A DNA stretch of 29,734 nt, taken from positions 1-29,734 of IMG/VR virus record IMGVR_UViG_3300044681_000028; one strand, 5' to 3'. This DNA is from a virus. Below are positions 2,083 to 29,734 of this stretch, piece by piece. A program made the translations under genes and the position numbers. The number at the start of each line of letters is the position of its first letter. Position 1 is the first letter of the stretch. The notes below the pieces were generated by a model. The model did not search any database and was not told where the DNA came from. It was given only the letters and a program-made list of their open reading frames with translations.

Positions 2083-2110
2083 TAAATAGCAAAAAGACGA
2101 AATTGTGCCA
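2083..2110 (-). promoter_or_regulatory. Candidate phage late promoter (two-box element, copy A)
   Basis: On the minus strand the site reads TGGCACAA, then 8 nt, then TTTTGC TATTTA. Read as a promoter this is a -35 TGGCAC, a 16-bp spacer and an extended -10 (TGC-TATTTA). It stands just downstream of a terminator-like hairpin and 13 nt before the ATG at 2069. Five more sites in this genome have the same spacing. The promoter role is inferred. Confidence 0.6.
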
Positions 2111-4372: not shown

Positions 4373-4400
4373 TAAATAGCAATTATTCAAAGGTGTGCCA
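4373..4400 (-). promoter_or_regulatory. Candidate phage late promoter (copy B)
   Basis: Minus strand: TGGCACAC, 8 nt, AATTGC TATTTA, with the same 8-nt gap as the other copies. It lies in the short gap between the protease stop (4406) and the scaffold ATG (4357), giving an expected leader of under 10 nt. It would give scaffold and capsid their own transcript. Confidence 0.6.
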
Positions 4401-4966: not shown

Positions 4967-6693
4967 CCTCCGAATGTTGCTTGTGATTCTATTTGGTTTA
5001 TGTTATTCTGGTTGCCCGTTACTTCTGTCTCCACGACATAGGCTTGAATAGGTGCGAGTTGGGCTTGTTCAACTCCTCCGAGTTCGGTTGTTCCCGCAGT
5101 CGCTTGTTGGATAGCTGGAGCAGTTGCCACTTGTGGAGCGGTTGGCGTTGCCGCACTTCCGCCCGGTACATTGGCAGAGTTTAATGTTGAAACTGCCGAA
5201 GCAATACCAGCAACAACTGCCGCGACCCCCGTAGCTATTGCCACAAGGTTGCCCGGATAAGGTACGCTCTGCGCCTGAGCAATAGCCCCGACTATCGCCT
5301 TTGCTGTGTCGATAGCTATTTGAGCAATGGCTAACGTCTTTTGTAGAACAACCGCCTCGCGAGATTGGCTGCCACTTGCCTCAACGAGTTGATTAATAGA
5401 GTTTAGAACTCCGCCCGTAGCCGTAAGATAGGATTCTTGAAGTTTGACCTTTGCGTCCCTCAGTTCCTTCTCCTTCTTTAAATCCTCATCTCTGAACTTC
5501 TTTCGTAGTTTGGCAAGTGCTTCTTGCTTTGCCCCTTCTATATCTGTCTCTGTGTCCCCAGCTAACCGTGCCATCTCCTCAAGTGACGCGTAATGTTGTT
5601 CGAGTTCAAGGAGTTCGAGTTCTCGTTGTTCCTTTCCAACCTTTGCTAATTCTTGTTGGATGTCGAATAACTCTTTTTCGAGAGCAGCTTGGTTAGTCAT
5701 CTGCTCGGACTTCTGCCCATTTATACGCTCATCCAAATCTGCTAACTCCCCCTTAGCTTGTGCAACAGCAGCCTGTGCCTCTACTGATGTTTTGTTTATT
5801 GCGAGTTCAGCATTGGCAAGGTCTAACTTTCTTTGAAAGATAACCCTTTCCGATTCGCTTTGTTCTTCGAGTATTTTGCCGAGTTTTTCGTTGGCTTCGA
5901 TACGTTCTGCAAGCGTCTTTCTGACATCATCACGAATCTGCCTTTGGTCTTCTGCCTCTTTCTGATAGGTCATCTGAACCAACTTCTGCTGTGCCTCGAG
6001 TTTTATCAGTTCGTTGCGTAGGTTGATAATAGCGTCCGCTTGATTGTATGCCTCTTTGGTTGTTTCGGCAAACGACTTTACGCCTTCTTTGAATGAATCA
6101 ACAACACCCGTTACAGCTTCCTTTGCTTCTTCATATTTCACACCGAGTTCTCCTACACCTTCCGCAACCTCCGCCCAATCGAATGTAAGCACCCCCTCTA
6201 TTATTTTACCAGCACTTCCAGCAATCTCACCCAAGTACTGAACAACAGGAATCGCTCTGTTTTTAACTCCATCTACGAAGTCTGCTATGGCTTGCTTTGG
6301 GTTGTTGAAAGCATCATATAACGCTTCGCCCAAAGGTGCTGCAAGGTCAATCAACTTACGCATGACAATTTCAACGGTAAGCATGACCTTACCGAATCCA
6401 TCTGCAACAGATTGGTTTGAAAGAAATATATCTTTCAGCTTATTAAAAGCCGCCACAATAACCGCAACTACCCCAAGCGATTTGACCAACGAGCCTATCC
6501 CGTTACCAAGAGATTTGATTCCTTTTCCCGCGTTCTTTGCTCCTTTTTCTGCCGCCTCGAAACCAGCCTTGAACTGGTCTCCCATCTCCTTCTGCGTAGC
6601 CTTTACCTTTTCGAGTTCCTCACGTAACGAGATTATCTCATCGCTGGCTTCGCCCGTTTTTACGTCTACCTCTATTGCAACCTTTGTAGCCAT
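4963..6693 (-). CDS. Tail tape measure protein
   Basis: A 576-aa protein with the hallmarks of a tape measure: long helical coiled-coil stretches rich in Lys/Glu/Ala (about 225-430), a hydrophobic segment at about 68-83 (LVKSLGVVAVIVAAF) and another near 475-500 (NLVAIATGVAAVVAGIASAV), and a low-complexity Ala/Thr/Pro/Gln tail. At 576 residues, and assuming the usual 1.5 angstrom per residue, the tail would be short, about 85 nm. The N-terminal start (VAIEVDVKTGEASDEI) is typical of Bacteroidota tape measures. It lies after the fibre gene and before the head protease; in most siphoviruses the tape measure precedes the distal tail genes, so the order is rearranged here. Confidence 0.85.
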   Translation of the reverse strand: MATKVAIEVDVKTGEASDEIISLREELEKVKATQKEMGDQFKAGFEAAEKGAKNAGKGIKSLGNGIGSLVKSLGVVAVIVAAFNKLKDIFLSNQSVADGFGKVMLTVEIVMRKLIDLAAPLGEALYDAFNNPKQAIADFVDGVKNRAIPVVQYLGEIAGSAGKIIEGVLTFDWAEVAEGVGELGVKYEEAKEAVTGVVDSFKEGVKSFAETTKEAYNQADAIINLRNELIKLEAQQKLVQMTYQKEAEDQRQIRDDVRKTLAERIEANEKLGKILEEQSESERVIFQRKLDLANAELAINKTSVEAQAAVAQAKGELADLDERINGQKSEQMTNQAALEKELFDIQQELAKVGKEQRELELLELEQHYASLEEMARLAGDTETDIEGAKQEALAKLRKKFRDEDLKKEKELRDAKVKLQESYLTATGGVLNSINQLVEASGSQSREAVVLQKTLAIAQIAIDTAKAIVGAIAQAQSVPYPGNLVAIATGVAAVVAGIASAVSTLNSANVPGGSAATPTAPQVATAPAIQQATAGTTELGGVEQAQLAPIQAYVVETEVTGNQNNINQIESQATFGG

Positions 6694-7268
6694 TAAGCTG
6701 GGATAAGTCTGTAGTTAACGTAAACTGTAATGTCGGAATCTCCAGCCGTTGGGTTTCCGCCAGCAACATACACATGAAGGTCTGAGTTTGTAAGCAATTG
6801 CGTGTCCGATGCCAAAGAAGCGGTTGATTGCTCCCCCACCCTATGGCTTGTCGTTGTAGCATTTAGACAGGCATTTATTCTATATTGAACAGAACTTGCA
6901 CCGCTACATATTAGACTAACAGTTGTATTGGTTGCGTATGCTGCGCTGTTGAAGTCAATCTTAACACTTGCAGAAACGACCTCAATAGCGTAACCAGCAA
7001 CCGCACCGACAATAGTGATAGGTGTTGAGTTCAGCGTTAGAACGTCTGCGCTTGCAATGGTCAAAGAAGCAGAGCCGCCCAAACAAGTAACCCCGTTGTC
7101 GTCCCGTGACCAAAGAACGCCATCGGCTTGATTAAAGAATAGTTCCCCTTTGTATATGTCCGTAGCTATCCAAGTGCCGTCCGTGTGGTCATTTGAACTT
7201 GGTACTGTTGGAACGGTTGCCGTTATGGTTGACCTTTTAATTTTAATTCGTGAGTCTTGTGTTGCCAT
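6693..7268 (-). CDS. Short tail fibre or receptor-contact protein
   Basis: A 191-aa protein. Its N-terminus IKIKRSTITATVPTVPSS, followed by KGELFFNQADGVLWSRDDNG, is the attachment module found at the start of many phage fibres and tropism determinants. The rest is beta-rich and ends in a compact region (STASLASDTQL, VYVAGGNPTAGDSDITVYVN) resembling a trimeric head domain. The ATG at 7268 overlaps the stop of the large Tal-like gene (TAATG) and lies 24 nt after a candidate late promoter. A role in host contact is inferred from the N-terminal module and position. Confidence 0.75.
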   Translation of the reverse strand: MATQDSRIKIKRSTITATVPTVPSSNDHTDGTWIATDIYKGELFFNQADGVLWSRDDNGVTCLGGSASLTIASADVLTLNSTPITIVGAVAGYAIEVVSASVKIDFNSAAYATNTTVSLICSGASSVQYRINACLNATTTSHRVGEQSTASLASDTQLLTNSDLHVYVAGGNPTAGDSDITVYVNYRLIPA

Positions 7269-10111
7269 TATTGTTCGCCTCCTTCTATTGTATAAATAGC
7301 TATTTCGCTAAATTGTGTCTGTACGATGTCCTCGCCACCGTCAACCGTGAAGATGTTAGTGCCTCCATTCAATGCCCGGACCTCATTCAATCCACCTTCC
7401 AACACCTCCACGTTGTCCTGTTCCTTGCCGTTGATGTAGGTAGTGTTTGACTGGGTAACAATTACACCATTGGTATTGATGAGTTGGACGTTGTGAAGCC
7501 CTCCAATTACCTCATTGTCATTGCCGAATATGGTAATGTTCTTCGAGCCTTCGCCTATTGTGTTTCGGCTTCCTACCACTTTGAAAGCTGTAACGCTCTG
7601 CCCTACGTTATTGTCCGCTCCGCTCACCTTTCCTTGAAACGGAGGATACTTGTTTCCGTTTGTTTTTATTTCGGTGGAAGGAGATGGCATCTTTTCCTTA
7701 CCTAAATAACCCCCAGCGTTCAAACTTCGGCTTCCCTTTTTGAAGGTAACAGCCTCCTTAATCTTGATGAGTTCCACCTTCGTTAACCCCTCTTTGAACG
7801 GGTTGTAATTCATTACTTTGTTGAGCCTCCAATAGCTGTTATCTATTACTATTTGGTCGCGGAAATCTAAGGTGTTGATGTCGGTCGGTTCAAGGTAGAA
7901 CATCGCAGTCATTACCTTCGAGTCCTTATCCGTTACCTCGTTTATGTAATTGCGGTGGTAGATGTTGTAAAGGTTCGCGTTCGTTACTTGGAGCGTTCCC
8001 GTGTATCCATTCGCTTGGTAATAGAGTTCGTAAGGTAGCCCGAAGTTGATGTCGATGGTTGGCGTTATTGGCTCGTCCCAATGTCCAGCGTATGGATAAG
8101 TTGAGTTGTAAGTGTCTTGTAGGTTTATTGTTCTTCGATGTACCCAAGTCGGGTCGCTTGGTATTAGACCGCCATAGTAAAGAATCCGAATATTTGCGTC
8201 CGTTGGCTTTGCTCCTTCTTCAATGTCAGCGTCCCAAATTGCTGGGATAATTCGATTCGATGGGTTGTCATTGACTAATGGCGAAGGGGAAAAAACAACC
8301 TCTACCTCTTTGGAACTCTGCACAAAGTCGTTATCTACCTCTATCCGCGAACGTCCATAAGCGTGTCCTCTGTTTGACTGATAACGCTCGTTATAATAGT
8401 CCCCATCCTCCGAATATGTGTAGATGTATTCCCTATCGGTAAGAACTCCCAACGGTTCAAGGGTAATGTCTCTGTCCCTTGCCAGCTTGTACGTCCAGTC
8501 CTTTATCCCCCCCTGAGAGTAGAATGTGTCGCGGGTTTCAATGAGCAGATTCTTCTCGTTGTTCGGGTCTACCTCAACGTAAAGATTGAACATTTTAAAT
8601 AAAGACGTTAAGAACTCGCTCATTTCAACATCGGGCAAGTTATCCGTCATGTCCACAAACTCGCCTTCGGTAATTCCTTCGTTCAAGTATTCATTGTAGA
8701 ACTCACCGCCCACAATGTCGAAGTCAAGATAATAGGGGATATTAGGCGGTGTCACATTACCCGTGTCGGGATGAAACAGAATGAAATAGTTAGTGTAACC
8801 GATTCCCGGTTCGTCAGCTATCAAATCAACATAATACTCATCGCCCTCTAACGCTTGTACGTTTGTAGCCGTTATGACGTATGTATTCTGCACCACGTTT
8901 TGAGAAAGGAACGGTGGTGTTGTATAGCCAGACGTTAGTCCAAGTGTAAATCCCCAGTCCGTTTCTGCCATTACTTCCACCGAGTTGTTGCGTTTTCTCA
9001 TTATCCTCAGCTTTCCTGAGAATTGATTTCGTCCTGACTCTCCAGTTTGCGCTCTGAGTATTGCAATAGAACCCCATTCTGTACACCTAAGGTCAACCGA
9101 TGCAGTTAGGTCGTAGAATCCAGTCGCTTCACTATCCACAAGCCATTTGTAATTTTGAGAAGCTGGAGAGAAAGGGTCTGACGGAACTAAGTAGTTTCCA
9201 GTTACAGACTGTCCATTGTCGAAGAATGGAGTAACTTCATTTGAATAACAAACTCTTGGCGTTGAATTTGGATTCACCCAAAAGCCCTGATTCCCAACTA
9301 CGATAGCTGGGTTGGTTGTTGCATTTATAATGGCATTTTGAGTAACCGTTTTCCCTACTCTGTACAATTTCTCTTGTAGGTTGTCCTCTGAAATTGTCAA
9401 AGGCTTAGTTACTGGGACAATCAATCTATTGAATAGAACTGAGTCAAAGAATGAACTCTGATAAGTGAACCCCGCAAAGTCGAAAATCTTGTTGAGTATC
9501 GTCTTAGCGTAGTAAGCGGGTCGCAAATCTCCGACCTCATAAATTCTATTTCCTTGATTTGTGAACTCCGCACCTCCGCCCCAATCAATTAACGGGTAAA
9601 CGTAACCGTCTCCGACTGGTGCGCTCCAGCTATCGACTTGGTTTTGATAGGTGTAATAGTGGTCAAACTCTGAGAAGTCTAAGTAATTGACATTGCTCTC
9701 ATCCACTCCGCTAAGTTCCTTGTCTCCAAGAACCGAGAAGATGTTGAGCAACTTACCGATAAATACCACCTCGTAGGTGTAGGCGTGTCCCTTTTGGACA
9801 ATCTTCCGAAGTTGGACAACCCCAGCCATTACCTCCACCCCGTCAGCTATTACTCGCGCCTCCGCTTTCTTATTAGGGTTGAAATTAACGCTAATGTTAG
9901 TAGTGTTAGCATCGTAGTTGTTTGAGATGTTAACGTCGTATATATGCCCGAAGAGTTCATCGTTGTTCTTCGTTGCCGGGCATTTGATGGTCTTGGAGTA
10001 TTCCGTGCTTCTCTTCTCAGGGTTACGGATGTCAGCAATGCCGTAGTTGAAGGAGAAATCGAACCCCTCGAATACGTCTAAACGTCTGCCCTCTATTCTA
10101 ACTTCAACCAC
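7268..10111 (-). CDS. Large tail tip protein (Tal-like) with C-terminal beta-solenoid
   Basis: A 947-aa protein, the largest gene. The N-terminal 450 residues (beginning VEVRIEGRRLDVFEGFDFSFNY) look like a tail-hub/Tal domain as seen after Dit-like proteins in Bacteroidota phages. Residues about 450-780 continue the baseplate-type region. The C-terminal 150 residues are Asn/Gly/Val-rich short repeats (VVGSRNTIGEGSKNI, IFGNDNEVIGGLHNV), a left-handed beta-solenoid pattern like trimeric adhesin heads. Start is GTG at 10111, overlapping the previous stop. The last 20 codons contain a candidate late promoter for the next gene. The likely role is tail tip hub plus host surface contact. Confidence 0.8.
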   Translation of the reverse strand: MVEVRIEGRRLDVFEGFDFSFNYGIADIRNPEKRSTEYSKTIKCPATKNNDELFGHIYDVNISNNYDANTTNISVNFNPNKKAEARVIADGVEVMAGVVQLRKIVQKGHAYTYEVVFIGKLLNIFSVLGDKELSGVDESNVNYLDFSEFDHYYTYQNQVDSWSAPVGDGYVYPLIDWGGGAEFTNQGNRIYEVGDLRPAYYAKTILNKIFDFAGFTYQSSFFDSVLFNRLIVPVTKPLTISEDNLQEKLYRVGKTVTQNAIINATTNPAIVVGNQGFWVNPNSTPRVCYSNEVTPFFDNGQSVTGNYLVPSDPFSPASQNYKWLVDSEATGFYDLTASVDLRCTEWGSIAILRAQTGESGRNQFSGKLRIMRKRNNSVEVMAETDWGFTLGLTSGYTTPPFLSQNVVQNTYVITATNVQALEGDEYYVDLIADEPGIGYTNYFILFHPDTGNVTPPNIPYYLDFDIVGGEFYNEYLNEGITEGEFVDMTDNLPDVEMSEFLTSLFKMFNLYVEVDPNNEKNLLIETRDTFYSQGGIKDWTYKLARDRDITLEPLGVLTDREYIYTYSEDGDYYNERYQSNRGHAYGRSRIEVDNDFVQSSKEVEVVFSPSPLVNDNPSNRIIPAIWDADIEEGAKPTDANIRILYYGGLIPSDPTWVHRRTINLQDTYNSTYPYAGHWDEPITPTIDINFGLPYELYYQANGYTGTLQVTNANLYNIYHRNYINEVTDKDSKVMTAMFYLEPTDINTLDFRDQIVIDNSYWRLNKVMNYNPFKEGLTKVELIKIKEAVTFKKGSRSLNAGGYLGKEKMPSPSTEIKTNGNKYPPFQGKVSGADNNVGQSVTAFKVVGSRNTIGEGSKNITIFGNDNEVIGGLHNVQLINTNGVIVTQSNTTYINGKEQDNVEVLEGGLNEVRALNGGTNIFTVDGGEDIVQTQFSEIAIYTIEGGEQ
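7293..7320 (-). promoter_or_regulatory. Candidate phage late promoter (copy C), inside the 3' end of the tail tip gene
   Basis: Minus strand: AGACACAA, 8 nt, AATAGC TATTTA; its first box is the AGACAC variant shared with the copy at 13022-13049. It overlaps the last codons of the 947-aa gene and precedes the fibre ATG at 7268 by 24 nt. This is the weakest match in its TTTTGC part, but the spacing and TATTTA are intact. Confidence 0.45.
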
Positions 10112-12182: not shown

Positions 12183-12682
12183 AAAAAAGCCGACAACGGT
12201 TGTACTATTGTCATTGGTGCTTGAAGCATTGCCTCCGAAACTTCCTTGTGTTTCTCAGGGTCGTACTTACCTTTTTTCCATCCGTACCAAGTTTTCTTCT
12301 TCGGCACTAAGAACACCGCCATCACTTCGTGTAGCTGGTCGATAACTTTGTCTGGGTCTTTCATCAAGTGCATCAGCGTAATGTACTGACCTCCGTTCAA
12401 GTTGTAAACGTCTGTTATAACATCGTATTTCTGACCTCCAAATTCCACTACCTTCTGTACCTCTCCGACAAGTTGCTCGGTAAGGAAAGAAAGCGTCTGC
12501 ATGCACTTAGCGTATGTCTTTAGTGAGTAGGTTTCAATCTCGTCAACTGGAACGCCTGACATTATCGAAATGATAGCCACGTTGGTCGGGTACTCTTCCC
12601 CCTTCTCTGCGAGGATTCTTTGAATTGCTTGGAACTGCTCAACGGTTACGCCCGCCCAGCTATTTGGTAGTTCAATCTTCAT
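12062..12682 (-). CDS. Tail assembly chaperone (G-like), 206 aa zero-frame product
   Basis: A mostly helical protein opening with IELPNSWAGVTVEQFQAIQ, a pattern common in Bacteroidota phage proteins before the tail genes, with a second helical block around residues 90-130. Residues 165-168 (AFFL) are encoded over nine consecutive T, where a -1 shift leads into an 89-codon extension. The zero-frame tail after the shift site is very basic (KAEKIKRQAERRLKRLNRN). By analogy with lambda G/T it would assist polymerisation of the tube around the tape measure. The ATG at 12682 overlaps the preceding gene by 11 nt. Confidence 0.75.
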   Translation of the reverse strand: MKIELPNSWAGVTVEQFQAIQRILAEKGEEYPTNVAIISIMSGVPVDEIETYSLKTYAKCMQTLSFLTEQLVGEVQKVVEFGGQKYDVITDVYNLNGGQYITLMHLMKDPDKVIDQLHEVMAVFLVPKKKTWYGWKKGKYDPEKHKEVSEAMLQAPMTIVQPLSAFFLSSYLMSAKHILESSVRKAEKIKRQAERRLKRLNRNTAG

Positions 12683-13013
12683 TCTTTATCTGTTCTATTT
12701 TCTTGATTGCCCAGTTAACGCCCTCATCTCCGCCCCAAGCAAGCCACATCAAACGTCCGCAACCTTCGCCCAGCTTTCGGGTAGAGTTGCGTTTGTGTCG
12801 GATAAATGCAGCCATTCGCTCAATGGTTTCTAAACTGATAGGTTCACGGTTTGCTAATTGGTTAGCCCTTGCCTTTCCAACGGCAGTACCGCATCCTTTC
12901 CATCCGTTTTTCTCCGCCCAATTTAGAGCAGTTTTGGCGTTATCGCTTGCGGCTTTCGGGTAATCCGTGTAAGCCTCTTGCATCCGCCATATTTTGTTCA
13001 GTCTTTCAAGCAT
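12672..13013 (-). CDS. Small conserved phage protein with a GTAVGxARANQLANREPIS domain
   Basis: Residues about 30-105 (pattern WGTAVG/ARANQLANREPISLETIERM...GCGRLMWLAWGG) form a small helical domain that I recognise from phage head or capsid-associated proteins and sometimes from fusions to proteases; the biochemical role is unknown. The reading frame is open to an ATG at 13139, but that part encodes an odd repeated peptide (MAFMAFMA) over a 9-bp repeat. I prefer the ATG at 13013 (113 aa) because a candidate late promoter ends 8 nt upstream, implying a leaderless or nearly leaderless mRNA; 13022 is also possible but overlaps the -10 box. It sits between the large terminase and the tail genes. 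Confidence 0.72.
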   Translation of the reverse strand: MLERLNKIWRMQEAYTDYPKAASDNAKTALNWAEKNGWKGCGTAVGKARANQLANREPISLETIERMAAFIRHKRNSTRKLGEGCGRLMWLAWGGDEGVNWAIKKIEQIKNED

Positions 13014-13021
13014 CTCAATCA

Positions 13022-13049
13022 TAAATAGCGAATTTACACTTTTGTGTCT
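13022..13049 (-). promoter_or_regulatory. Candidate phage late promoter (copy D)
   Basis: Minus strand: AGACACAA, 8 nt, ATTCGC TATTTA, the last A being shared with an ATG at 13022. It lies downstream of the large terminase and would head the tail operon. The first box is the AGACAC variant also seen in copy C. Confidence 0.55.
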
Positions 13050-13139: not shown

Positions 13140-14324
13140 CTACCGTATTGTGTACTTTCCAGCGTTCGCCTTCAGCTTCTCCATTGCCACGTAGCGGAGC
13201 GCATCGAGTGCGTGGTTGTTGTCATCTTCGGGTTGGTTCGTTACTTGGTTGGTCTTGTAGTCCCGTTTCCATGCGTAGTTCCTCAGTTCTCGGATGATGT
13301 TAACCGAGTCTTGGTGTACCATTATTTGAACGCTCTTTAGCTTATCGATGCCTGACCTTACGCTGTCCTGACCTTTGGCAACTGGTCGGATTCTGAAGCC
13401 AGCCCTTCGGATTTCTTCGATGCTCTTGGGCTCTGCTGAATCGGCTATGATTTCGTCCGACCTTTGTAGCCCGCACTTCCTTGCAATGTCTGCGTTCGTT
13501 AACCCTGTTTCGTAAAGCACTTCACGAACCCATAATTTACCTTCTTGATAGAGTACCTCCACGAGTGCAGTCGGGTCGTTCGTAAACCCGAAGTCGAGTC
13601 CGTATGCTTTCCACTTGTACCCGGTCGGAAACTCTTTGGTTTCTTGCCAGTTCTCGTATATCGCGCCTTCTCTTCTTGACCTTTGCCCAAGTCCGTAAAC
13701 CTTCCACTTGTATTCGTCAGCCGTGCCTCGTGATACGTTAAAAGGTGTCGGCTCGTAGCTGTTTATCTTGTCGCGGATGTGCTGGTCGAGGAAGGTGTTG
13801 TCCAGCATCGTGGAATGTATAAGCACCACATCATCCCGTTTCAGAACGTTGTCGTATATCCAATGCTCGTCTGTGGAAGGGTTGTAGTCGAGAATCCACT
13901 TGCCTTTGCATCGCTGCTCTAATTGGTCGAAATCATCCTTGCTTGTTTCAATGGCTTCATTCAACCAAAAGTAATCTGTTTCGATACCGTGAAGCTTCTG
14001 AGAATCGTCAAGCCCGTAGAACTCAAACGTAGACCCGTGAGCAGAGTAAATTAAATCAGTCTTGTTAAACGCCTCATCCTCCCAAACCTCAAGGCTCTGG
14101 AGTACTTTCTTGAACGTGTCGAGTACCGTTGGTTTAATCCACGTCCTCCTAAACCTCGCAATTGCGATTCTCTTCGGTTCTTGTAATCCTGTAAGGTAGA
14201 TGGCTTGACAGATGCTCCACGTTTTCGAGGAACGGCTTCCACCCTCAAGCACAATTCCCCGAATGGATTTATCATTAAGGGCTTGCCACAGGTCATCAAA
14301 TACGCCAGTTCCTTCAATTTTCAC
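13140..14324 (-). CDS. Terminase large subunit
   Basis: The packaging motor and nuclease, 394 aa. The ATPase half shows a Walker A variant GGSRSSKT (28-35) and Walker B YFWLNE (118-123). The RNase H-like nuclease half shows acidic residues in YGLDFG (D244), IIADSAEPKS (D295) and DDNNHALDALRY (368-374). It belongs to the PBSX/Terminase_3 type. Start is GTG at 14324, overlapping the stop of the preceding small gene (GTGA). The circular assembly with no defined end fits a headful packaging enzyme. It follows the small terminase candidate with one small gene between. Confidence 0.95.
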   Translation of the reverse strand: MKIEGTGVFDDLWQALNDKSIRGIVLEGGSRSSKTWSICQAIYLTGLQEPKRIAIARFRRTWIKPTVLDTFKKVLQSLEVWEDEAFNKTDLIYSAHGSTFEFYGLDDSQKLHGIETDYFWLNEAIETSKDDFDQLEQRCKGKWILDYNPSTDEHWIYDNVLKRDDVVLIHSTMLDNTFLDQHIRDKINSYEPTPFNVSRGTADEYKWKVYGLGQRSRREGAIYENWQETKEFPTGYKWKAYGLDFGFTNDPTALVEVLYQEGKLWVREVLYETGLTNADIARKCGLQRSDEIIADSAEPKSIEEIRRAGFRIRPVAKGQDSVRSGIDKLKSVQIMVHQDSVNIIRELRNYAWKRDYKTNQVTNQPEDDNNHALDALRYVAMEKLKANAGKYTIR

Positions 14325-14506
14325 GTAAGGTTATTGGTTGACTTTTTGGTAGGTTTCGTCAGTCTTTGACCTGACTGCTTATTAGCTTCTGACATGAACA
14401 CCGTCACCTTCTGCGTTGGGCAGCTCATCTTGTGATAACCGCAACCTCCGCAGTATTCACATTTGATGTTGACGTTACCGTTCTTGATGTTCGTTGCTTT
14501 CTTCAC
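14321..14506 (-). CDS. Small zinc-finger-like protein between the terminase genes
   Basis: A 61-aa protein. A CxxCGGCGxxxxxC pattern (CEYCGGCGYHKMSC) around residues 16-29 suggests one metal site. The N- and C-termini are basic, with Lys/Thr/Asn-rich tails, so nucleic acid binding is possible. The GTG start at 14506 overlaps the preceding TGA, and the stop overlaps the terminase GTG, so translation is likely coupled. No family was recognised. Confidence 0.65.
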   Translation of the reverse strand: MKKATNIKNGNVNIKCEYCGGCGYHKMSCPTQKVTVFMSEANKQSGQRLTKPTKKSTNNLT

Positions 14507-14904
14507 TTCTTCTCAGGTCGATGTATTACTATCTCTACCTTGTCAGGCTTGCCTCCGTTAACCGTCTGCTCAACCTCTTCTTTCGGCTTGCCGTAGACCC
14601 TATCGAACAGAACGTCCAATATGTGGATGCTTCCTTTCTCGTAGTCTCGTTGGGCTTTCTTCGCAATAAGAGCAATCCAAAACGGCAACTGGTCGTTCTT
14701 TGCCAACTCCACCAACTCGCTTCTTGACTTGCCGAGTACGTTCTTGATGATGTCCTGAACCTGACCCTTCGACAGCTTGACATTATGCTCATCAAGGAAG
14801 TGTTCCTTTAGTAGCGTTTCCACGTTTTTCGGTCTCCCTTTCGGGTTGCCGCTCTGTCCTTTCTTGAAGGGTTTTAGGTTCTCAGGTGTTCCGCCTTCGT
14901 TCAT
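14503..14904 (-). CDS. Terminase small subunit candidate (DUF5681-like)
   Basis: A 133-aa protein. The N-terminal motif FKKGQSGNPKGRPK is the signature of a family found immediately before large terminase genes, assigned as a DNA-recognising small subunit. Residues 25-130 are helical with a basic middle. The ATG at 14904 overlaps the stop of the methyltransferase gene. Its position one small gene upstream of the large subunit supports the assignment. Confidence 0.75.
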   Translation of the reverse strand: MNEGGTPENLKPFKKGQSGNPKGRPKNVETLLKEHFLDEHNVKLSKGQVQDIIKNVLGKSRSELVELAKNDQLPFWIALIAKKAQRDYEKGSIHILDVLFDRVYGKPKEEVEQTVNGGKPDKVEIVIHRPEKK

Positions 14905-16388
14905 TGTTCAATCGCTGTTTTAACGTACTCTTTTCCGTTTATCTTAACGCTCAAAGTCGGGTCGAGTTTCGTCATTCTGTCGATAATTACTTGGCAGTAT
15001 TTAGGGTCAAGTTCCATGCCATAGCATTTGCGTTTCAGTTGATGGGCGGCTACCATTGTTGAGCCTGAGCCTAAGAAGAAGTCTACCGTTAAGCCATCTT
15101 CGGGACAACTGCTTTTAATTGCCCGTTCGCATAGTGGTATGGGCTTTGGTGTTGCGTGTCCTCCTTCAGTTCCGTTTTTAACGTGTCGGCTAAAATGCCA
15201 AACGTTATTCATATTGTCGTGCGTGTTGTCAAAGTACGCTCGGGTTGAATAGTATTCTTTTTTTAACGCATCGTATTCTTTTTTTAACGCATCGTATTCT
15301 TTGTGAAACGCATCGCCCTTTGCTTCGTTTCTCATTGAATTATAGTGCTCTCGTGTTGGAAAATGCCACTGACTTGTTGTAAAGTAATGCGAAGCAGATG
15401 TTTTTCCTGTAATTTCTATAACCTTCTTGACGTTCCACCCAAGCTTATTTTTTTGCGTATTTAAATATTCTCTTATTGGTTCAAACCCTTCAAAATAATT
15501 GTGTGAATTATTGTTAAAACCTTGAACCCCGAGCATAATAAAAAGGCATTTTTCATCAGCCGTTGCGTAACTTCTTGTATTGTCTGAATTTTGGCTTTGC
15601 CCGTGTCCCTTGTCCCAAGTTATCAAATTTCTGAATGTTGCTTTTTCGTTCTTTATGTAAGGCTTCAGAACTCCGCTATAAATATCCATCAAAGGTTCAT
15701 CAATACCCCAGCAATACCAACTACCGTTTTCCTTCAAATGAGTAAACTGCAAGGCTATCCACTCTTTATTGAACTCCAGTAAATCCGCATAGTTTAGATT
15801 GTCATTAAGTACCCCCTCGCTTTCTTTTTTCATTCCGTAGGGCGGGTCATTGTGGGCGAGGTCAGCCTTCTCTCCATTCATCAGCTTTGCCACTTGGTCA
15901 GAGTCCGTTGAATCTCCACAAAGCAAACGGTGTTCTCCTATCTCGATAAGGTCGCCAAGAACAACGTCTGTCTTTAGTTCTTCGGGCACTTCGTAATCGT
16001 CCTCTTCTGCTTCCAGTTCTTCTGCTTTCCAATTATCAGGAGTGTCAAGCCCCCACTCGTTCAGTTCTTCAGCATCCCAAGTATTCGCCAGTTCGTCCCA
16101 GTCCCATTCCCCGAATCCTACGTTGTCTTTGATGATGAACTCGCGCTGTTTCTCCTCTGACCAATCAACAACCTCTACGGGTACTTCTGACCATCCAGCT
16201 TCTTGCATTGCCTTGAGCCGCATATTGCCGCCCAAGACTATCATCTCTGTGTTAACGACTATCGGTCTGACGTTAGCCATCTCAGGAAAGTCCCGAAGGC
16301 TCTGAACCAGCTTCTTAAACTTCTCGTCTTTGATGTATCTCGGGTTCTCCGAGTTTGGTCTAACCTTGCTTATTGCTATTGTTTCCAT
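14901..16388 (-). CDS. ParB-like domain fused to N6-adenine/N4-cytosine DNA methyltransferase
   Basis: A 495-aa protein. Residues 1-115 are a ParB/Srx-like domain (IAISKVRPNSENPRYI, GGNMRLKAM at 53-61). The methyltransferase domain follows: motif IV is DPPY (180-183) and motif I is FLGSGSTM (437-444) near the C-terminus, the order of the beta class. Residues 361-377 include a duplicated YDALKKE heptad encoded by 21-bp repeats. This fusion is common near phage terminases and probably protects phage DNA from restriction; the ParB part may target it. ATG at 16388 overlaps the preceding small gene. Confidence 0.9.
   Translation of the reverse strand: METIAISKVRPNSENPRYIKDEKFKKLVQSLRDFPEMANVRPIVVNTEMIVLGGNMRLKAMQEAGWSEVPVEVVDWSEEKQREFIIKDNVGFGEWDWDELANTWDAEELNEWGLDTPDNWKAEELEAEEDDYEVPEELKTDVVLGDLIEIGEHRLLCGDSTDSDQVAKLMNGEKADLAHNDPPYGMKKESEGVLNDNLNYADLLEFNKEWIALQFTHLKENGSWYCWGIDEPLMDIYSGVLKPYIKNEKATFRNLITWDKGHGQSQNSDNTRSYATADEKCLFIMLGVQGFNNNSHNYFEGFEPIREYLNTQKNKLGWNVKKVIEITGKTSASHYFTTSQWHFPTREHYNSMRNEAKGDAFHKEYDALKKEYDALKKEYYSTRAYFDNTHDNMNNVWHFSRHVKNGTEGGHATPKPIPLCERAIKSSCPEDGLTVDFFLGSGSTMVAAHQLKRKCYGMELDPKYCQVIIDRMTKLDPTLSVKINGKEYVKTAIEQ
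15253..15315 (-). repeat. Three 21-bp tandem repeats inside the methyltransferase gene
   Basis: The units 15253-15273 and 15274-15294 are identical (plus strand tattctttttttaacgcatcg); the third, 15295-15315, differs in three bases. They encode the YDALKKE repeat in a probable helical insertion. Each complete unit carries a run of seven T, so the copy number is likely to vary between isolates. Confidence 0.85.
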
Positions 16389-16506
16389 CTAACCTTCGTT
16401 TTATTTCGATTGCGACCCCCGCTTTCTCCGCTTCCTTTTTGGAGTCGTAGATGCAGTCTCCGTTTCCCCACCTCCATTTTCCGTTATCGCATTGTCTTGC
16501 TGGCAT
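16360..16506 (-). CDS. Small overlapping protein, 48 aa
   Basis: Starts at an ATG inside the preceding gene and reads PARQCDNGKWRWGNGDCIYD followed by SKKEAEKAG. The pattern QC-x-NGKWRxGNG-x-C-x-(Y/F)D-(S/T)KK-x-AE resembles small phage proteins I have seen elsewhere, so the frame looks genuine. It overlaps the 124-aa gene by 106 nt in another frame, and the methyltransferase by 29 nt. The function is unknown; two Cys may bind metal or form a bond. Confidence 0.6.
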   Translation of the reverse strand: MPARQCDNGKWRWGNGDCIYDSKKEAEKAGVAIEIKRRLDGNNSNKQG

Positions 16507-16775
16507 TGGTAAAAGTTTAAAAGTGCAACACTCATCAGTTGAGGAGTTCGACCACAAGTGAAACAGACCTTAGCTTTCGGGTCGATGTAACTCCACGCTT
16601 CTTGGTAGAGTTTCTGTTCATCTCGTGTTATCCGTCCCGAATACCGCCCCTGTCCCATCATCGTGATTTGGTCGAGCCTCTCAGCTATAAATAGCAAAAC
16701 TTCGTTTTTGTCCATGCTTAAAATTTCATGCCACCCGTTTTCCTTCAGGTAGTCGGTTATAGTTCGAACCTCCAC
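16401..16775 (-). CDS. Protein with a Cys motif and basic tail, unknown role
   Basis: A 124-aa protein with a helical N-terminal half and the segment KAKVCFTCGRTPQLMSVALL around residues 68-87, then a low-complexity, Lys/Arg-rich tail (PKRKRRKRG). The tail is co-encoded with the 48-aa gene in another frame and may simply be read-through of shared sequence. Start is GTG at 16775, overlapping the preceding gene by 19 nt. A copy of the late promoter element lies inside at 16688-16714, so a shorter product from M34/M35 (about 16676) is conceivable. Function is unknown. Confidence 0.65.
   Translation of the reverse strand: MEVRTITDYLKENGWHEILSMDKNEVLLFIAERLDQITMMGQGRYSGRITRDEQKLYQEAWSYIDPKAKVCFTCGRTPQLMSVALLNFYQCQQDNAITENGGGETETASTTPKRKRRKRGSQSK
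16688..16714 (-). promoter_or_regulatory. Candidate phage late promoter (copy E), within a gene
   Basis: Minus strand: TGGACAA, 8 nt, TTTTGC TATTTA. The TTTTGCTATTTA part is identical to copy A and the spacing is the same, but the first box deviates and the site is in coding sequence, so chance cannot be excluded. It would drive the methyltransferase and terminase genes. Confidence 0.4.
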
Positions 16776-17008
16776 ATCAATCTCTCAAATAACACACTCA
16801 GCAAAGGAACGTAAATAAGAGCCTCAGGGTCGTTGACGCAATAAAGAACCCCGAACCAAAAAGACATACAAAGCCGACAGTCCAACGGTTTAAACGAATA
16901 ACTCTCGTCCATCCCAATCCACTTTTTAATAAGTAGGTCGATTGCCAGTACCTCAATCCAAAGGTAAGCGGCAACGCTCGCGGATAATGCGCTCAAGATG
17001 TATAGCAT
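16757..17008 (-). CDS. Small membrane protein
   Basis: An 83-aa protein with two hydrophobic segments: residues 1-27 (LYILSALSASVAAYLWIEVLAI) and about 48-75, separated by the motif KPLDCRLCMSFWFG. The P-L-x-C-x-x-C-x-S-F-W-x-G pattern recurs in small phage membrane proteins of unknown role. The ATG at 17008 lies 56 nt inside the preceding sigma-like gene. Confidence 0.65.
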   Translation of the reverse strand: MLYILSALSASVAAYLWIEVLAIDLLIKKWIGMDESYSFKPLDCRLCMSFWFGVLYCVNDPEALIYVPLLSVLFERLMWRFEL

Positions 17009-17477
17009 AGTAATTATCTCTTAGTTGTTCAAGTGCTTTGACTACTGTGTTTCCGATTGACTTGTAAGGAATATCGACCTTCTTGCCGACCTTTCGATAG
17101 CTTCCTTCTTCCAGCCACAATTTAAGTACCTCGCGGTCGTACCAATGCAGCTCGTCCATCAGGGTTTCCAAAAGTGCAATGTCGTCCTCTTTCTCCCAGT
17201 CGTAGTCCTCTCGCTCGTGGTCAACCTTCTTGTGATTGTGTAGGTCGTAGAGTTTTGAGAAGCTGGAGCGTTTACTGGTAGCCATTGTCATCATCGTCCG
17301 AACTACGTAGAATCTCAGATAGCCACCTTCGTTTATCTGTTGCCACTTCTCTTCGGGCATCTCCAGCAGAAGAAGAACCACCTCTTGTATAAGGTCATCC
17401 GGGCAATTACATAGCTTCTGAGCGAGTTCGTATAACTCTTGGTCAGATAGTAGGTCGATTGCCGCTTGTTCTTTCAC
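16953..17477 (-). CDS. Sigma-factor-like transcription regulator
   Basis: A 174-aa protein. Residues 20-75 (DDLIQEVVLLLLEM, GGYLRFYVVRTMMTM) resemble sigma region 2. Residues 112-155 (YDREVLKLWLEEGSYRKVGK, KVDIPYKSIGNTVVKALEQL) form a region-4-type helix-turn-helix. An acidic linker lies between them, as in ECF-type factors. The size fits the ECF class. GTG start at 17477. A repeated two-box promoter-like element in this genome makes it the natural candidate for a late sigma factor; that link is inferred. It could also be a terminase-like or other HTH protein with a sigma-related fold. Confidence 0.72.
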   Translation of the reverse strand: MKEQAAIDLLSDQELYELAQKLCNCPDDLIQEVVLLLLEMPEEKWQQINEGGYLRFYVVRTMMTMATSKRSSFSKLYDLHNHKKVDHEREDYDWEKEDDIALLETLMDELHWYDREVLKLWLEEGSYRKVGKKVDIPYKSIGNTVVKALEQLRDNYYAIHLERIIRERCRLPLD

Positions 17478-18730: not shown

Positions 18731-18869
18731 GATAAAAAGAAAGGAGGTCGGGTTGACAGCCCGAAACAAAGTGAGCCGACAAGGTAGCTGCGACCTCTGT
18801 TACTTCCTCCTGTGTTTGGTGTGTTTATCATTCCTTGCCATTATCGAACGCTTGTCAGGCGTTCATTAG
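18731..18869 (-). promoter_or_regulatory. Structured leader upstream of the initiator gene
   Basis: The gap holds several pairing segments, given on the plus strand: GAACGC (18846-18851) with GCGTTC (18859-18864); GAGGTCG (18744-18750) with CGACCTC (18791-18797); AGGAGG (18742-18747) with CCTCCT (18806-18811); and a local hairpin TCGGG-ttgacag-CCCGA (18748-18764) that competes with the long pairing. A 13-codon ORF (MARNDKHTKHRRK) runs 18841-18800. This could be a cis-acting regulatory RNA, an attenuator or part of the origin. Confidence 0.45.
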
Positions 18870-18897
18870 TAAGTAGCAAAATTAACAATTTGTGCCA
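18870..18897 (-). promoter_or_regulatory. Candidate promoter (copy F) upstream of the initiator leader
   Basis: Minus strand: TGGCACAA, 8 nt, TTTTGC TACTTA. The same stretch also matches the host consensus (TTTTG-N22-TAATTTTG), so it might be recognised by either polymerase form. It follows the C5 methyltransferase stop (18906) and would start the leader at about 18862. Confidence 0.5.
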
Positions 18898-21182: not shown

Positions 21183-21401
21183 TTATGCTAATTTTTCGTA
21201 TGCAACGTAAGCAGCACTGAAGTTGTGACTTATTTGGTCGTAACTTACAACAATCTTACCGCCAACCTTAAATCCTGCCATGTTTGCAAGTATCACCCTT
21301 TGACCAAGCGAAAATGACCACCACCATTTTTGAACGTGTTGTGAATATTCAACGGTTCTGATGCTTGGCTCTTGTTGTTTGTTTGGGTCTTTGTAGTTCA
21401 T
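21183..21401 (-). CDS. Small early protein, unknown
   Basis: A 72-aa protein, first gene after the early promoter P1. Residues include VQKWWWSFSLGQRVILANMA and QISHNFSAAYVAYEKL. No family was recognised. Its A-rich leader resembles that of the first gene after P2, indicating shared regulation. Confidence 0.65.
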   Translation of the reverse strand: MNYKDPNKQQEPSIRTVEYSQHVQKWWWSFSLGQRVILANMAGFKVGGKIVVSYDQISHNFSAAYVAYEKLA

Positions 21402-21425
21402 AACTCTGTTGCTTTAGTGGTTTAA

Positions 21426-21489
21426 CCGTTAATGATGGCTCAAATATAAAACAATTGTTTTGAATATCCAAAACACTACGGCAAAAAAA
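21426..21489 (-). promoter_or_regulatory. Early promoter P1 with palindromic operator
   Basis: The minus strand carries TTTTG (21473-21469), a 20-nt spacer and TATATTTG (21448-21441), an excellent match to the Bacteroidota housekeeping promoter TTG-N17-23-TAnnTTTG. The -33 element is inside a nearly perfect 18-bp palindrome (21457-21474, GTTTTGAATATCCAAAAC on the plus strand). The same unit recurs at 23743-23807. It serves the replication block starting at 21401. Confidence 0.78.
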
Positions 21490-23524: not shown

Positions 23525-23716
23525 CTATCCGTTTAGTTCTTCAAATGTCAATTCATTGAAACCCGTAATAGCCTTGTGGTAATGTATTTTACTGAAATCC
23601 ATATCCCCCCAAATTTCAGCCTCTTCAACTTTGTCAGTTACATTGATGCTATTACTTAAAGAGGGAGCGATATAAATCGGTGAACCAAATTCGCGTGTTA
23701 CCATTACCATTTTCAT
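23525..23716 (-). CDS. First gene after early promoter P2, small protein
   Basis: A 63-aa protein with MVMVTREFGSPIYIAPSL and a C-terminus ending GFNELTFEELNG. Its first position in the operon hints at an immediate-early role. The ATG has a leader nearly identical to that of the P1 first gene. No family recognised. Confidence 0.62.
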   Translation of the reverse strand: MKMVMVTREFGSPIYIAPSLSNSINVTDKVEEAEIWGDMDFSKIHYHKAITGFNELTFEELNG

Positions 23717-23742
23717 TTTTCTGTTGTTTTTAGTGGGTTACC

Positions 23743-23807
23743 CCGTTAATGATGGCTCAAATATAAAATAATTGTTTTGAATATTCAAAACATTTAGGGC
23801 AAAAAAA
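23743..23807 (-). promoter_or_regulatory. Early promoter P2 with perfect palindromic operator
   Basis: The minus strand has TTTTG (23790-23786), 20 nt, TATATTTG (23765-23758). The -33 lies inside a perfect 18-bp palindrome, GTTTTGAATATTCAAAAC (23774-23791). It is nearly identical to P1 over about 56 bp and is preceded by a T-tract (TTTTTTTGCC). It would drive the recombination block. Confidence 0.8.
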
Positions 23808-26582: not shown

Positions 26583-27632
26583 TTAAACGGCTCCTCCGTC
26601 TGTTATTGTCCAACCAAATGTTGAAATAAGTGATGCTCTTGCCGCATCTGCCGCTCCACCGCCAGTATATGTGCTGGTCCAGAAACTAACAGTTGGTGAA
26701 TATGGGTAACCTACTCCACCTGGATACGCTGCCTGTAAAGAGGCTTCCCACGCTATAAGTGTGGCGTCATAATTAGCTGTTGATAATGTGCCGCCTAGGA
26801 ACATAAAGTTCCCAGCGTCAGTAATCTTTGAAACATCCCAACCGTCAAGAGCCTGATTAAAGGCTGTGGCATAGGACAGCATGCCATTTATATTCGTTAG
26901 GGCTGTGGTAGCCCATCCTCCGATGTTCTGATTAAACGAGGCGGCTTGGCTAAACATTCCACTCATGTTTGTAACACTTGAAACGCCCCAATTGTCCAAG
27001 GGTTGATTGAATGCCGATGCTGATCTGAACATCCCTGCATTTATGCCTCCCATTAAGGTAACATTGGAGACATCCCAGTTGTTTATACTGTCGCTTCCCC
27101 CGTTGTTAAATATGGAACATAGGTAAAACATAAGTTGCATGTTAGTCACCGCGCTAACATCCCAATGGCCTATGTCTGAGTTCATCAAACTGCATGCAGT
27201 GAACATCCTATTCAATGAAGTAGATGTTATGGTTGGTGCATCGGTAGCTGTAATGGTCATGTTCGAGCAACCATCAAAAGCCCTATCGTTAACTACATTG
27301 AATGTACCCCAATTTGAGATATCTGTTATCTTCAATCGATCTCCAGCATAGGCAAATTGCCACCCCTCAATTGTTCCAGAGATAGTAATGGTGTACGTTC
27401 CACTTGATGCGTAAACGTGTGTCCTATTTGCATAACTTAAAGCGTCAGAATTACCATCTCCCCAATCAATCGTGCCTGAGTACGTGCCTCCTGACAATAA
27501 AGGAAGGACTACCGTATTGGAAGCAGAACCTGCCTTTGTCGTATCCCAAGTTGAAACGAAGTCAAGATTGACAGGAGGTGCGCCTCCGCCTCCGCGATAT
27601 GCGGCAACACATATTTGGCTAACGCCTATCAT
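26583..27632 (-). CDS. BspA/DUF285-repeat surface-binding protein, probable receptor-binding or adhesin
   Basis: A 349-aa protein. Residues about 20-110 resemble a PKD/beta-sandwich module (SGTIDWGDGNSDAL, THVYASSGTYTITISG). Residues 115-290 are DUF285/BspA-type repeats of about 25 aa with the recurring pattern W-D-V-S-x-V-T-N-M-x-x-M-F (HWDVSAVTNMQLMF, NWGVSSVTNMSGMF). BspA repeats mediate surface contact in Bacteroidota. It shows a different word composition: two of three GATC, and the only GGCC, lie here. This indicates recent acquisition or exchange. Position between structural and lysis genes fits a tail-decorating binding protein. Confidence 0.85.
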   Translation of the reverse strand: MIGVSQICVAAYRGGGGAPPVNLDFVSTWDTTKAGSASNTVVLPLLSGGTYSGTIDWGDGNSDALSYANRTHVYASSGTYTITISGTIEGWQFAYAGDRLKITDISNWGTFNVVNDRAFDGCSNMTITATDAPTITSTSLNRMFTACSLMNSDIGHWDVSAVTNMQLMFYLCSIFNNGGSDSINNWDVSNVTLMGGINAGMFRSASAFNQPLDNWGVSSVTNMSGMFSQAASFNQNIGGWATTALTNINGMLSYATAFNQALDGWDVSKITDAGNFMFLGGTLSTANYDATLIAWEASLQAAYPGGVGYPYSPTVSFWTSTYTGGGAADAARASLISTFGWTITDGGAV

Positions 27633-28349: not shown

Positions 28350-28910
28350 TTACTTGCGTTTGTACTCATATTTGTCCTCTAAGCTGATGAACTTCGGTCT
28401 GCGCCCCAAGAACATTCCTGTCGTGTAGGTTCGTGTATCGGGTTGGATTGTATCAAGACCATCGTCAGGGTTAGCGTAGCTTGGGTAGTCTGTTTCGTTC
28501 TCAAGAAGGAAACGAACGAGCCTCTCGGTGTACCACTCCGCCTTATCCTTGTAACGCTTGGATATGAAGTTGATTTCGTCAAGTGAAGCGTTGGAACTGT
28601 TCTCAGAACTCTGCTGGTGTAGCCCCTTGTTCAGAAACTTGTAGCTTATCGCAGTCGGTGCTTCGCTTTGAACCCAATGAAGTAACGCTGGCTGGATGTA
28701 ATCCTCCAAAAGAGTAGTATTCGCAGCCGTTAACGTGGAGTTGGTTATCTGCGTTTTGAGTTCGTTGTATAAAGTAGTGCCAATCTTGTGCTGGATGTGG
28801 ATGTCTTGGCACATCAACACGACTGGTCGCAAGTACTTGAAGTCGATATTCTCGTGGAGCAAAGTGTTGTCCTTCAAGAATGTTTCCGATATGAATAAGA
28901 CGTTAGCCAT
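28350..28910 (-). CDS. Head-tail connector, DUF6712-like
   Basis: A 186-aa protein. It begins ANVLFISETFLKDNTLLHEN and continues with CQDIHIQHKIGTTLYNELKT, the recognisable opening of the DUF6712 family of Bacteroidota phage neck proteins. Helical throughout, with basic C-terminus (SLEDKYEYKRK). ATG at 28910 overlaps the portal stop (TAATG). It probably docks on the portal as the adaptor of the neck. Confidence 0.85.
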   Translation of the reverse strand: MANVLFISETFLKDNTLLHENIDFKYLRPVVLMCQDIHIQHKIGTTLYNELKTQITNSTLTAANTTLLEDYIQPALLHWVQSEAPTAISYKFLNKGLHQQSSENSSNASLDEINFISKRYKDKAEWYTERLVRFLLENETDYPSYANPDDGLDTIQPDTRTYTTGMFLGRRPKFISLEDKYEYKRK

Positions 28911-29734
28911 TACTTCTTAATTCTCATAAGTTTCTGCTCCCAATAGTGGCGGCAATGGTAGGATTTGCCCCAAAAGCCACCGCCTCGCATCCATACATTT
29001 CTGTTTTGGCTTACTCCGATGTTTTGAATCTCGGTCAACTTCCAACTCTTACCAGCTTCTGTTTCCGTTACGAGTTCGCGGCAGAATTGTCGGGTAGTTG
29101 GAATTATAGCCGCACCACTTGCTTCGGGTCGTTTAGAGTAAACGTAACGAATTACAAACTCCTCTTCGACTGGTGGTATCTCCTCAAGCAACCGTTCGCC
29201 TTCTTTGGTTACTTCCACTACTCGTTGCGTTGAGTCAAGTACATTGTCGACAGCTATCTTAATTGCATTGGCTTCGTTGAGTGCTTGCAGTCCAGCCATT
29301 ACCCTCTCAATTGAAAGTTGTAGCTGCTCGGCTATTGCCAAGAATGGAGTGGATGGATTCTCCTTAAGGATGTTCAGAATAGCCGTATCTAACGGGTCTA
29401 TCTCTGCAAACCAATACTTTCGGTTCAGTTCCTCGTGAAGTCTTGCGGAGGTTTCGCTTTCAAAGTTTAACGCCTTGCCGTTTCCGACTGGTTCGTAGTC
29501 CGTAGAGCCGCAGTTCTTGAAGTACTCAACAAGAATAGCATCCTCGTCTTGCTTCTCAAATACCGCCCGCATCTCTGCCGCCACGTTCTCAGGTATAACC
29601 TCGCCCGTAATAGTAGCCCTTGCAATCTCAGGGCTGAATCCGTACAACTCAACCAATACAGCGATAGCCGAGTTCTCAGCGATAAGACCCTCTTTGACTT
29701 GCTGAAGTAACGTAATGATTCCCGTAACACCACC
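28910..29734 (-). CDS. Phage portal protein, C-terminal part with embedded winged-helix domain and CRH-type end
   Basis: The frame is open to the window end at 29734 and continues into 1-1244 once the 8-bp overlap is removed (total 686 aa). After the conserved VTGIITLLQQVKEG and FSPEIARATITGE, residues about 525-596 of the whole protein read as a winged helix: DPLDTAILNILKENPSTPFL, AIAEQLQLSIERVMAGLQAL, and VTKEGERLLEE. The last 65 residues (TTRQFCRELV, WMRGGGFWGKSYHCRHYWEQ) match the Cys/His ending typical of Bacteroidota phage portal and minor-head proteins. A TTG-started shorter product is not needed. The wHTH may bind packaged DNA or simply be an extra head domain. Confidence 0.9.
   Translation of the reverse strand, partial: GGVTGIITLLQQVKEGLIAENSAIAVLVELYGFSPEIARATITGEVIPENVAAEMRAVFEKQDEDAILVEYFKNCGSTDYEPVGNGKALNFESETSARLHEELNRKYWFAEIDPLDTAILNILKENPSTPFLAIAEQLQLSIERVMAGLQALNEANAIKIAVDNVLDSTQRVVEVTKEGERLLEEIPPVEEEFVIRYVYSKRPEASGAAIIPTTRQFCRELVTETEAGKSWKLTEIQNIGVSQNRNVWMRGGGFWGKSYHCRHYWEQKLMRIKK

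Follow-up and report, generated by a model that had tools for sequence, protein, structure and literature searches.

A predicted phage-encoded ECF-like sigma factor and its candidate late promoters in an uncultivated, probably Bacteroidota-infecting phage lineage

The locus

The DNA analyzed here (the window) comprises 29,734 nucleotides, positions 1 to 29,734 of IMG/VR virus record IMGVR_UViG_3300044681_000028. An earlier note, made from its sequence alone, had singled out a 174-amino acid protein as its only obvious sigma-type product, and a scan of 37 window ORFs against PHROGs likewise yields a single sigma-factor match. The gene (Table 1) begins with GTG; in contrast to this minus-strand ORF, the plus strand of the same interval contains many stop codons. 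As the ORF is present at 47 IMG/VR loci (best-segment identity 82-99%), it is not a chance reading frame. It lies ahead of the packaging and structural genes, as had been noted: genes for the terminase, a head protease and the capsid follow on the same strand. A smaller ORF just before the terminase gene (14503-14904, 133 aa) gives a very weak match to SigZ (NCBIfam, E 0.0096); its product is possibly a terminase small subunit with a helix-turn-helix (HTH).

Table 1. Genes, protein domains and promoter-like elements of the window (nucleotide positions; residue numbers refer to the 174-aa protein).
Feature	Position	Strand	Remarks
Predicted phage sigma factor gene	16953..17477	minus (17477->16953)	GTG start at 17477, 174 aa
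Sigma region-2-like domain, residues 12-73	17259..17444	minus	AlphaFold2 helices 13-22, 26-39, 42-50, 54-67; host ECF alignment
DLIQE core-binding-type motif	17396-17382	minus	within region-2-like domain
Acidic linker, residues 78-93	17199..17246	minus	low confidence, pLDDT <50 at 83-89
Sigma region-4-like domain, residues 94-154	17016..17198	minus	AlphaFold2 and superposition; HTH at 17105-17028
Terminase large subunit	13140..14324	minus	downstream of sigma gene
Head protease	4406-4966	minus	downstream of sigma gene
SU10-type capsid protein (weak assignment)	2756-3754	minus	downstream of sigma gene
Putative late promoter, exact consensus	2083..2110	minus	13 nt before ATG of gene 1617-2069
Putative late promoter, exact consensus	4373..4400	minus	15 nt before ATG (4357) of gene 3776-4357, then capsid gene
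Putative late promoter, variant AGACACA-N11-TAGCTATTTA	7293..7320	minus	before gene 6693-7268
Putative late promoter, variant AGACACA-N11-TCGCTATTTA	13022..13049	minus	before likely true ATG (13013) of gene 12672-13013
Weaker site, 3 mismatches, shifted upstream box	16688..16715	minus	inside first codons of gene 16401-16715
Putative late-type promoter TGGCACA-N11-TTGCTACTTA	18870..18897	minus	heads operon DUF6291 protein - 183 aa ORF - sigma gene
Putative host-type (Bacteroidota) promoter TTTG-N20-TATATTTG	21441..21472	minus	before early gene 21183-21401
Putative host-type (Bacteroidota) promoter TTTG-N20-TATATTTG	23758..23789	minus	before early gene 23525-23716

Relatives were gathered by gene order. 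A search with the window terminase returned 598 loci, the best 80 of which were retained, and a profile built from the close family of the sigma-type protein was then used to pick similar ORFs upstream of the terminase gene. Among these 80 loci, 31 extend at least 4.5 kb upstream of the terminase gene, and 29 of them carry a family member by hand count; L186 and L201 do not. Alignment of 33 members (18-95% identity to the window protein) produced the diverse alignment designated A2. Searches of phages and genomes for close relatives of the sigma-type protein found none, and two Bacteroides phages with a related terminase, BC679P3 and BT50, contain no family member at E <= 1. A Bacteroidales MAG contig with a related terminase (L269) encodes, at 8480-8779, a sigma family protein of 100 aa made up of region 2 only, without region 4.

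The 174-aa protein is a member of the sigma-70 superfamily

The NCBIfam model TIGR02937 (sigma70-ECF) matches residues 14-154 of the window protein with E 2.2e-8, and each of the 13 NCBIfam families that it matches at E <= 0.1 is a sigma factor family. Since the score of 33.9 bits falls below the curated TIGR02937 cut-off of 42.9, we classify the protein by its fold and family rather than as a TIGR02937 member; its relative L191 scores 49.8 bits, above the cut-off, and TIGR02937 is matched by 30 of the 33 A2 members (E <= 0.1). PHROG 1740 (‘RNA polymerase sigma factor’) matches the window protein with E 0.0011, along with 12/33 family members. The Pfam scan of the window protein gave a sub-threshold match to Sigma70_r4_2 (E 0.013; 15.6 bits, cut-off 25.7) and none to region 2. 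Against the PDB, phmmer with the window protein retrieved unrelated proteins only and the close-family profile weak or unrelated matches only; the best match of the A2 profile is 9n9q_C, ‘RpoE’ of an RNA-guided transcription complex (E 2.2e-4), with both regions spanned. This profile also finds ECF-type sigmas in 10 of 11 Bacteroidota genomes, and each of the eight host proteins checked among its matches carries Pfam Sigma70_r2 and r4_2 above cut-offs; two phage-borne ORFs scanned together with these host proteins (L263, L269) gave no Pfam match.

Homology to the Bacteroidota ECF sigmas (TIGR02937; Sig70_bacteroi1, the GFO_1088/PG0214 family) is thus seen at the profile level and over the full length of the protein, at only about 14-20% identity to the eight host ECFs that were aligned. 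The two groups have in common the two-domain layout, an HTH in region 4, and a DLxQE/D motif in region 2, where DDLIQE (residues 27-32) of the phage protein aligns with EDLVQD or EDLYQE of the host proteins. The phage protein departs from the host ECFs in a short insertion that separates regions 2.2 and 2.3, and no neighboring anti-sigma gene was recognized. Regions 1 and 3 are absent, and the length of 174 aa is that of the class (about 160-200 aa). We conclude that the protein belongs to the sigma-70 superfamily, with an ECF-like layout of region 2 plus region 4.

Structure prediction agrees with the sequence profiles. An AlphaFold model computed from the close family only (18 near-identical sequences) reached a pLDDT of 56, too poor to be used alone, while alignment A2 gave a model (pLDDT 87.1, pTM 0.46) with two helical domains and a disordered acidic linker; we read the pTM as probably reflecting an open mutual orientation of the two domains. 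Every one of the 50 PDB rows in the Foldseek list is a sigma subunit or domain (best E 5.6e-3, none <= 1e-3), and the same holds for all 50 rows in the VIA-align list, with Z up to 10.4 and residues 1-166 spanned; chain F or a similar chain of an initiation complex was counted as sigma from the entry title. Residues 91-166 superpose on 3mzy (Z 10.2) and residues 94-161 on 2h27 (Z 9.6), at 1.6-1.8 A over 74 and 68 residues, respectively. In the model, both domains fold as sigma domains, bearing out the earlier description of region-2-like and region-4-like segments separated by an acidic linker; the structural outcome that the earlier note had named as refuting its reading, a prediction lacking the sigma 2 and sigma 4 folds, was not obtained.

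The protein might instead be a late-gene activator or antiterminator of the RinA, ArpU or Q type, with sigma-like DNA-binding parts, that aids the host holoenzyme without replacing the host sigma. Regulators of this type also sit just upstream of terminase genes, and among the 33 family members one matches phrog_79 (‘antitermination protein Q-like’) and one Phage_antitermQ, both weakly. However, region-2-like and region-4-like domains are predicted with high confidence, residues 1-166 align with complete sigma factors, the region 2 motif aligns with that of host ECF sigmas, the NCBIfam matches of the window protein, 13 families in all, include no RinA, ArpU or Q model, and the promoters described below combine a non-host -10-type box with an upstream box. 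We regard an activator or antiterminator of this kind as distinctly unlikely.

A two-box element precedes late genes

The motif TGGCACA-N11-TTGCTATTTA occurs at six sites on the minus strand of the window at <=3 mismatches, versus 0.04 expected, and no shuffle reached six. The repeated element to which the earlier note had drawn attention at 2083 and 4373 is accordingly real and non-random, although it extends beyond those two sites: it also heads the sigma operon, and some copies fall within reading frames or right at their borders. Four of the six sites stand 8-24 nt before a start codon. The 13049 site lies within an ORF in the window; because stop codons part the site from the gene in relative L177, gene 12672-13013 probably starts at 13013.

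The 16715 site extends over codons 1-10 of a small conserved gene. Comparison of 36 distinct relatives shows invariant codons at D2, K3, L8 and F9, whereas the codon for L7 varies once and that for I10 three times; 0/13 other invariant, degenerate residues keep one codon (relatedness uncorrected). The relatives seen have another in-frame ATG some 45-60 nt further downstream, so two forms of the protein are possible.

Two established promoter classes were considered for these sites and rejected. In the sigma-54 consensus the boxes lie 5 bases apart, whereas the boxes of TGGCAC...TTGC are, by eye, 12 bases apart; the host housekeeping elements TTTG/TAnnTTTG are absent.

Could the repeats be operators, or packaging or recombination signals on the coding strand, rather than promoters? 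The evidence for promoters is comparative only, and at two of the six sites there is overlap with a reading frame or its edge; the two boxes nevertheless keep a constant spacer and a fixed orientation with respect to the genes, most of them at the short distance from start codons given above. A non-promoter role seems to us highly improbable.

The element is restricted to one phage lineage

A scan of 2.9 million IMG/VR viral contigs for exact matches, with spacers of 10-12 allowed, found at least 119 stretches with at least 150 exact sites. Among the 150 matches listed, 146 lie directly upstream of two orthologous late genes (94 before orthologs of gene 1617-2069 and 52 before orthologs of gene 3776-4357), all with a spacer of 11; the other four, on contigs without these late genes, all have a spacer of 10. 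The concentration of the listed matches at two late genes with a constant spacer indicates that the motif is specific to this phage lineage and has a fixed two-box layout. It is kept in the phages of sigma clade II, whose terminase is only 36-37% identical.

A selection-free check used loci found by their terminase alone (best 80 of 598) that contain the start of a gene 3776 homolog. The site is present in L168, L169 and L170 (0 mismatches) and in L181 (2 mismatches); at the corresponding start in L204, which has another sigma clade, no site was found (7 mismatches).

Sigma clade and motif occur together

Twenty records were checked for the sigma gene: 15 members of the lineage and four unrelated matches from the promoter scan, plus one record (L181) from the terminase search. 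The gene was found in seven, namely six of the 15 promoter-bearing lineage members and L181. These six are all of the promoter-bearing records that reach the sigma position; the other nine have no terminase match or end before the expected position. The terminase check covered 14 of the 15, G014 being left out as its sigma gene was already present.

Relaxed sites follow the sigma clades: five in the clade I window, two in seven clade I' loci, four in four clade II loci, and none in 30 loci (418 kb) of clades III-V. The shuffles used for these counts were first-order random sequences, not exact dinucleotide shuffles. The protein segments expected to contact DNA show a corresponding pattern, with segment borders set by hand from the structure model. 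Clade II proteins match the window protein at 16-17/20 positions of region 2.3-2.4 and 17-19/26 of the HTH, versus 8-9/23 of the linker (for L252: 17/20, 19/26 and 8/23, with 99/174 overall), while clade III proteins, from phages where the motif is absent, match at 6/20 and 11-12/26 positions of region 2.3-2.4 and the HTH. As clades III-V are different phages, the association between motif and sigma clade is confounded by descent. Repeat counting, and a home-made motif finder run on six loci, revealed no convincing promoter of their own for clades III-V; since the finder also missed the window's own motif, its silence on these clades carries no meaning.

Of 21 relatives whose sequence extends 4 kb or more upstream, 20 have the 18897 site at the head of the sigma operon. 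It is absent in relative L016, and the stretches around the sigma genes of G005 and G016 contain no good site. Just after the 18897 site, at the presumed start of the sigma-operon transcript (18846-18864), is a short AACGC...GCGTT hairpin whose stem is kept and whose loop differs among relatives; the 5' leader after this site, taken whole, does not exceed shuffles in predicted fold stability (z 0.21).

Sigma gene and promoter family very probably belong together. Strong circumstantial features suggest that this sigma reads the 2083 and 4373 promoters: the motif is confined to the lineage, keeps one spacer length, follows the sigma clade and is also found ahead of the sigma operon.

Early promoters and the probable host

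Two sites of the form TTTG-N20-TATATTTG precede early genes (Table 1), a sequence that fits the Bacteroidota housekeeping consensus as given in the consulted part of PMC6847099. With 0.53 expected, two such sites are weak on number alone. Both lie in a duplicated 71-nt element (21419-21489 and 23736-23806, 86% alike), and sites of this type recur in L015, L022, L094, L128 and L143, with unrelated single matches in other loci. Between its two promoter boxes the element, which also recurs in relatives, contains the near-palindrome TGTTTTGAATATTCAAAACA; it looks like an early promoter with a putative built-in operator.

Gene starts, 41 of which were printed, are mostly A-rich and mostly without a Shine-Dalgarno sequence; a single start, at 7268, is preceded by one of AGGAGG type at the usual distance. 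The closest cellular terminases include those of Pontibacter, Bacteroidales and Flavobacteriales, with one Dojkabacteria MAG also near the top. Taken together, the promoter consensus, the A-rich starts lacking Shine-Dalgarno sequences and the closest cellular terminases make a Bacteroidota host likely.

A further alternative is that the late element is read by a host sigma (housekeeping or ECF), perhaps in concert with a second phage regulator, for which the AsnC-type HTH protein encoded at 28910-29656 would be a candidate, and that the sigma-like protein does something else, for instance redirecting host transcription. TATTTA in the late sites could pass as a loose -10, and the window does encode at least this one other DNA-binding candidate. 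On the other hand, the late sites do not fit TTTG/TAnnTTTG whereas the phage early promoters do; across 11 genomes of the probable host phylum, Bacteroidota, in which a host regulon should be visible, the late pattern is found 0 times; and the motif occurs with the sigma clade and in the sigma's own operon. A host sigma as reader is in our judgment unlikely.

Proposed mechanism

Our preferred reading, to which we assign a probability of roughly 0.8, is that the phage-encoded sigma of ECF layout directs host core polymerase to the TGGCACA-N11-TTGCTATTTA late promoters, including that of its own operon. In the early phase of infection, the host holoenzyme would start at the two TTTG-N20-TATATTTG promoters, as judged from their sequence, and transcription would cover the early genes and then, by read-through, the sigma gene. 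The phage sigma would bind host core polymerase through region 2 and direct it to the late sites; recognition of the TGGCACA box would fall to region 4 and that of the TTGCTATTTA box to region 2. The late sites would drive packaging genes, the protease, scaffold and capsid genes, and decoration-type genes. The late-type site that heads the sigma operon suggests self-amplification: through the 18897 site, the sigma may increase its own synthesis and so lock in the late program. The earlier picture of a self-contained late-gene switch is thereby retained in part: the phage has its own sigma and promoter family, but host core polymerase would be needed and the early promoters are of host type.

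Comparison with known systems

T4 gp55 and SPO1 gp28/gp33-34 are sigma-type proteins that redirect host polymerase to late or middle promoters, and the proposed role of the window protein resembles theirs in this redirection; T4 late promoters have one box and depend on a sliding-clamp co-activator. Phage-encoded sigma factors across host phyla are treated in a survey, of which part was consulted (PMC9429907).

Closer parallels come from phiEco32-like phages. In the sections of PMC8948821 consulted, gp47 of Salmonella phage 7-11 (SaPh711_gp47) is described as a sigma subunit that, with host core, reads the two-box late promoter GTAAtg-16-aCTA, while early promoters depend on the host sigma. 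The window shares with that system a phage sigma and two-box promoters upstream of late genes, and differs from it in promoter sequence and host; the two are likened here by function. PhiEco32 gp36 (phi32_gp36), a phage sigma for middle and late promoters according to the consulted parts of PMC8948821 and PMC4331800, offers a second parallel. Its promoters have one box (tAATGTAtA), ascribed in those parts of PMC8948821 to a lack of region 4 homology, whereas here there are two boxes and a clear region 4 domain. Phage-type promoters have also been proposed upstream of the sigma gene in the phiEco32 group, so that the sigma would be made from both host and phage promoters (same portions of PMC8948821 and PMC4331800). 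As in phiEco32 and 7-11, the window has a phage-specific motif upstream of late genes that is absent from its host-type early promoters. In the same excerpts, the promoters that had been predicted computationally for phage 7-11 (PMC4331800) disagree with those later mapped experimentally (PMC8948821), a warning for promoter inference of the present kind.

The best reading is by analogy: a late sigma that probably works like phiEco32 gp36 or 7-11 gp47, carried by an uncultivated phage lineage that probably infects Bacteroidota. Because the mechanism is known from phiEco32-like phages, the finding extends rather than overturns current understanding; what it adds in detail is a new lineage, a new motif and a new layout, presumably self-amplifying. 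A search of the open-license PMC literature found no paper on this lineage or motif, which is not proof of absence.

Bacteroidota transcription signals differ from those of E. coli, and the window offers a testable sigma/promoter pair, probably for Bacteroidota, in a phage lineage for which no cultured member was found. If the pair works as we read it, it would explain the order of early and late expression in these phages, would allow late operons of metagenomic phages to be located by the motif, and would supply an orthogonal expression part.

A broader idea, which we put forward tentatively and hold to be somewhat less probable than its negation, is that a large uncultivated group of Bacteroidota-type phages carries mutually orthogonal sigma/promoter pairs. 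The sigma gene would stay ahead of the terminase gene, its recognition segments and the late promoters would change together by clade, and promoters would fix synonymous codons where they enter reading frames. Phages of this kind would then amount to a natural series of expression systems for Bacteroidota, each self-contained and compatible with host core.

Other genes of the window

Three further products gave domain matches. The ORF at 14901-16388 fuses a ParB-like N-terminal domain to a DNA methyltransferase and contains three tandem 21-nt units (15249-15311). The 147-aa protein encoded at 19616-20059 matches only the C-terminal DNA-binding domain of DnaA (Bac_DnaA_C, E 5e-16) and is predicted to be DnaA domain IV without the ATPase. 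At 26583-27632, DUF285 repeats (E 1.6e-41), a family named from Mycoplasma proteins, are found in a phage.
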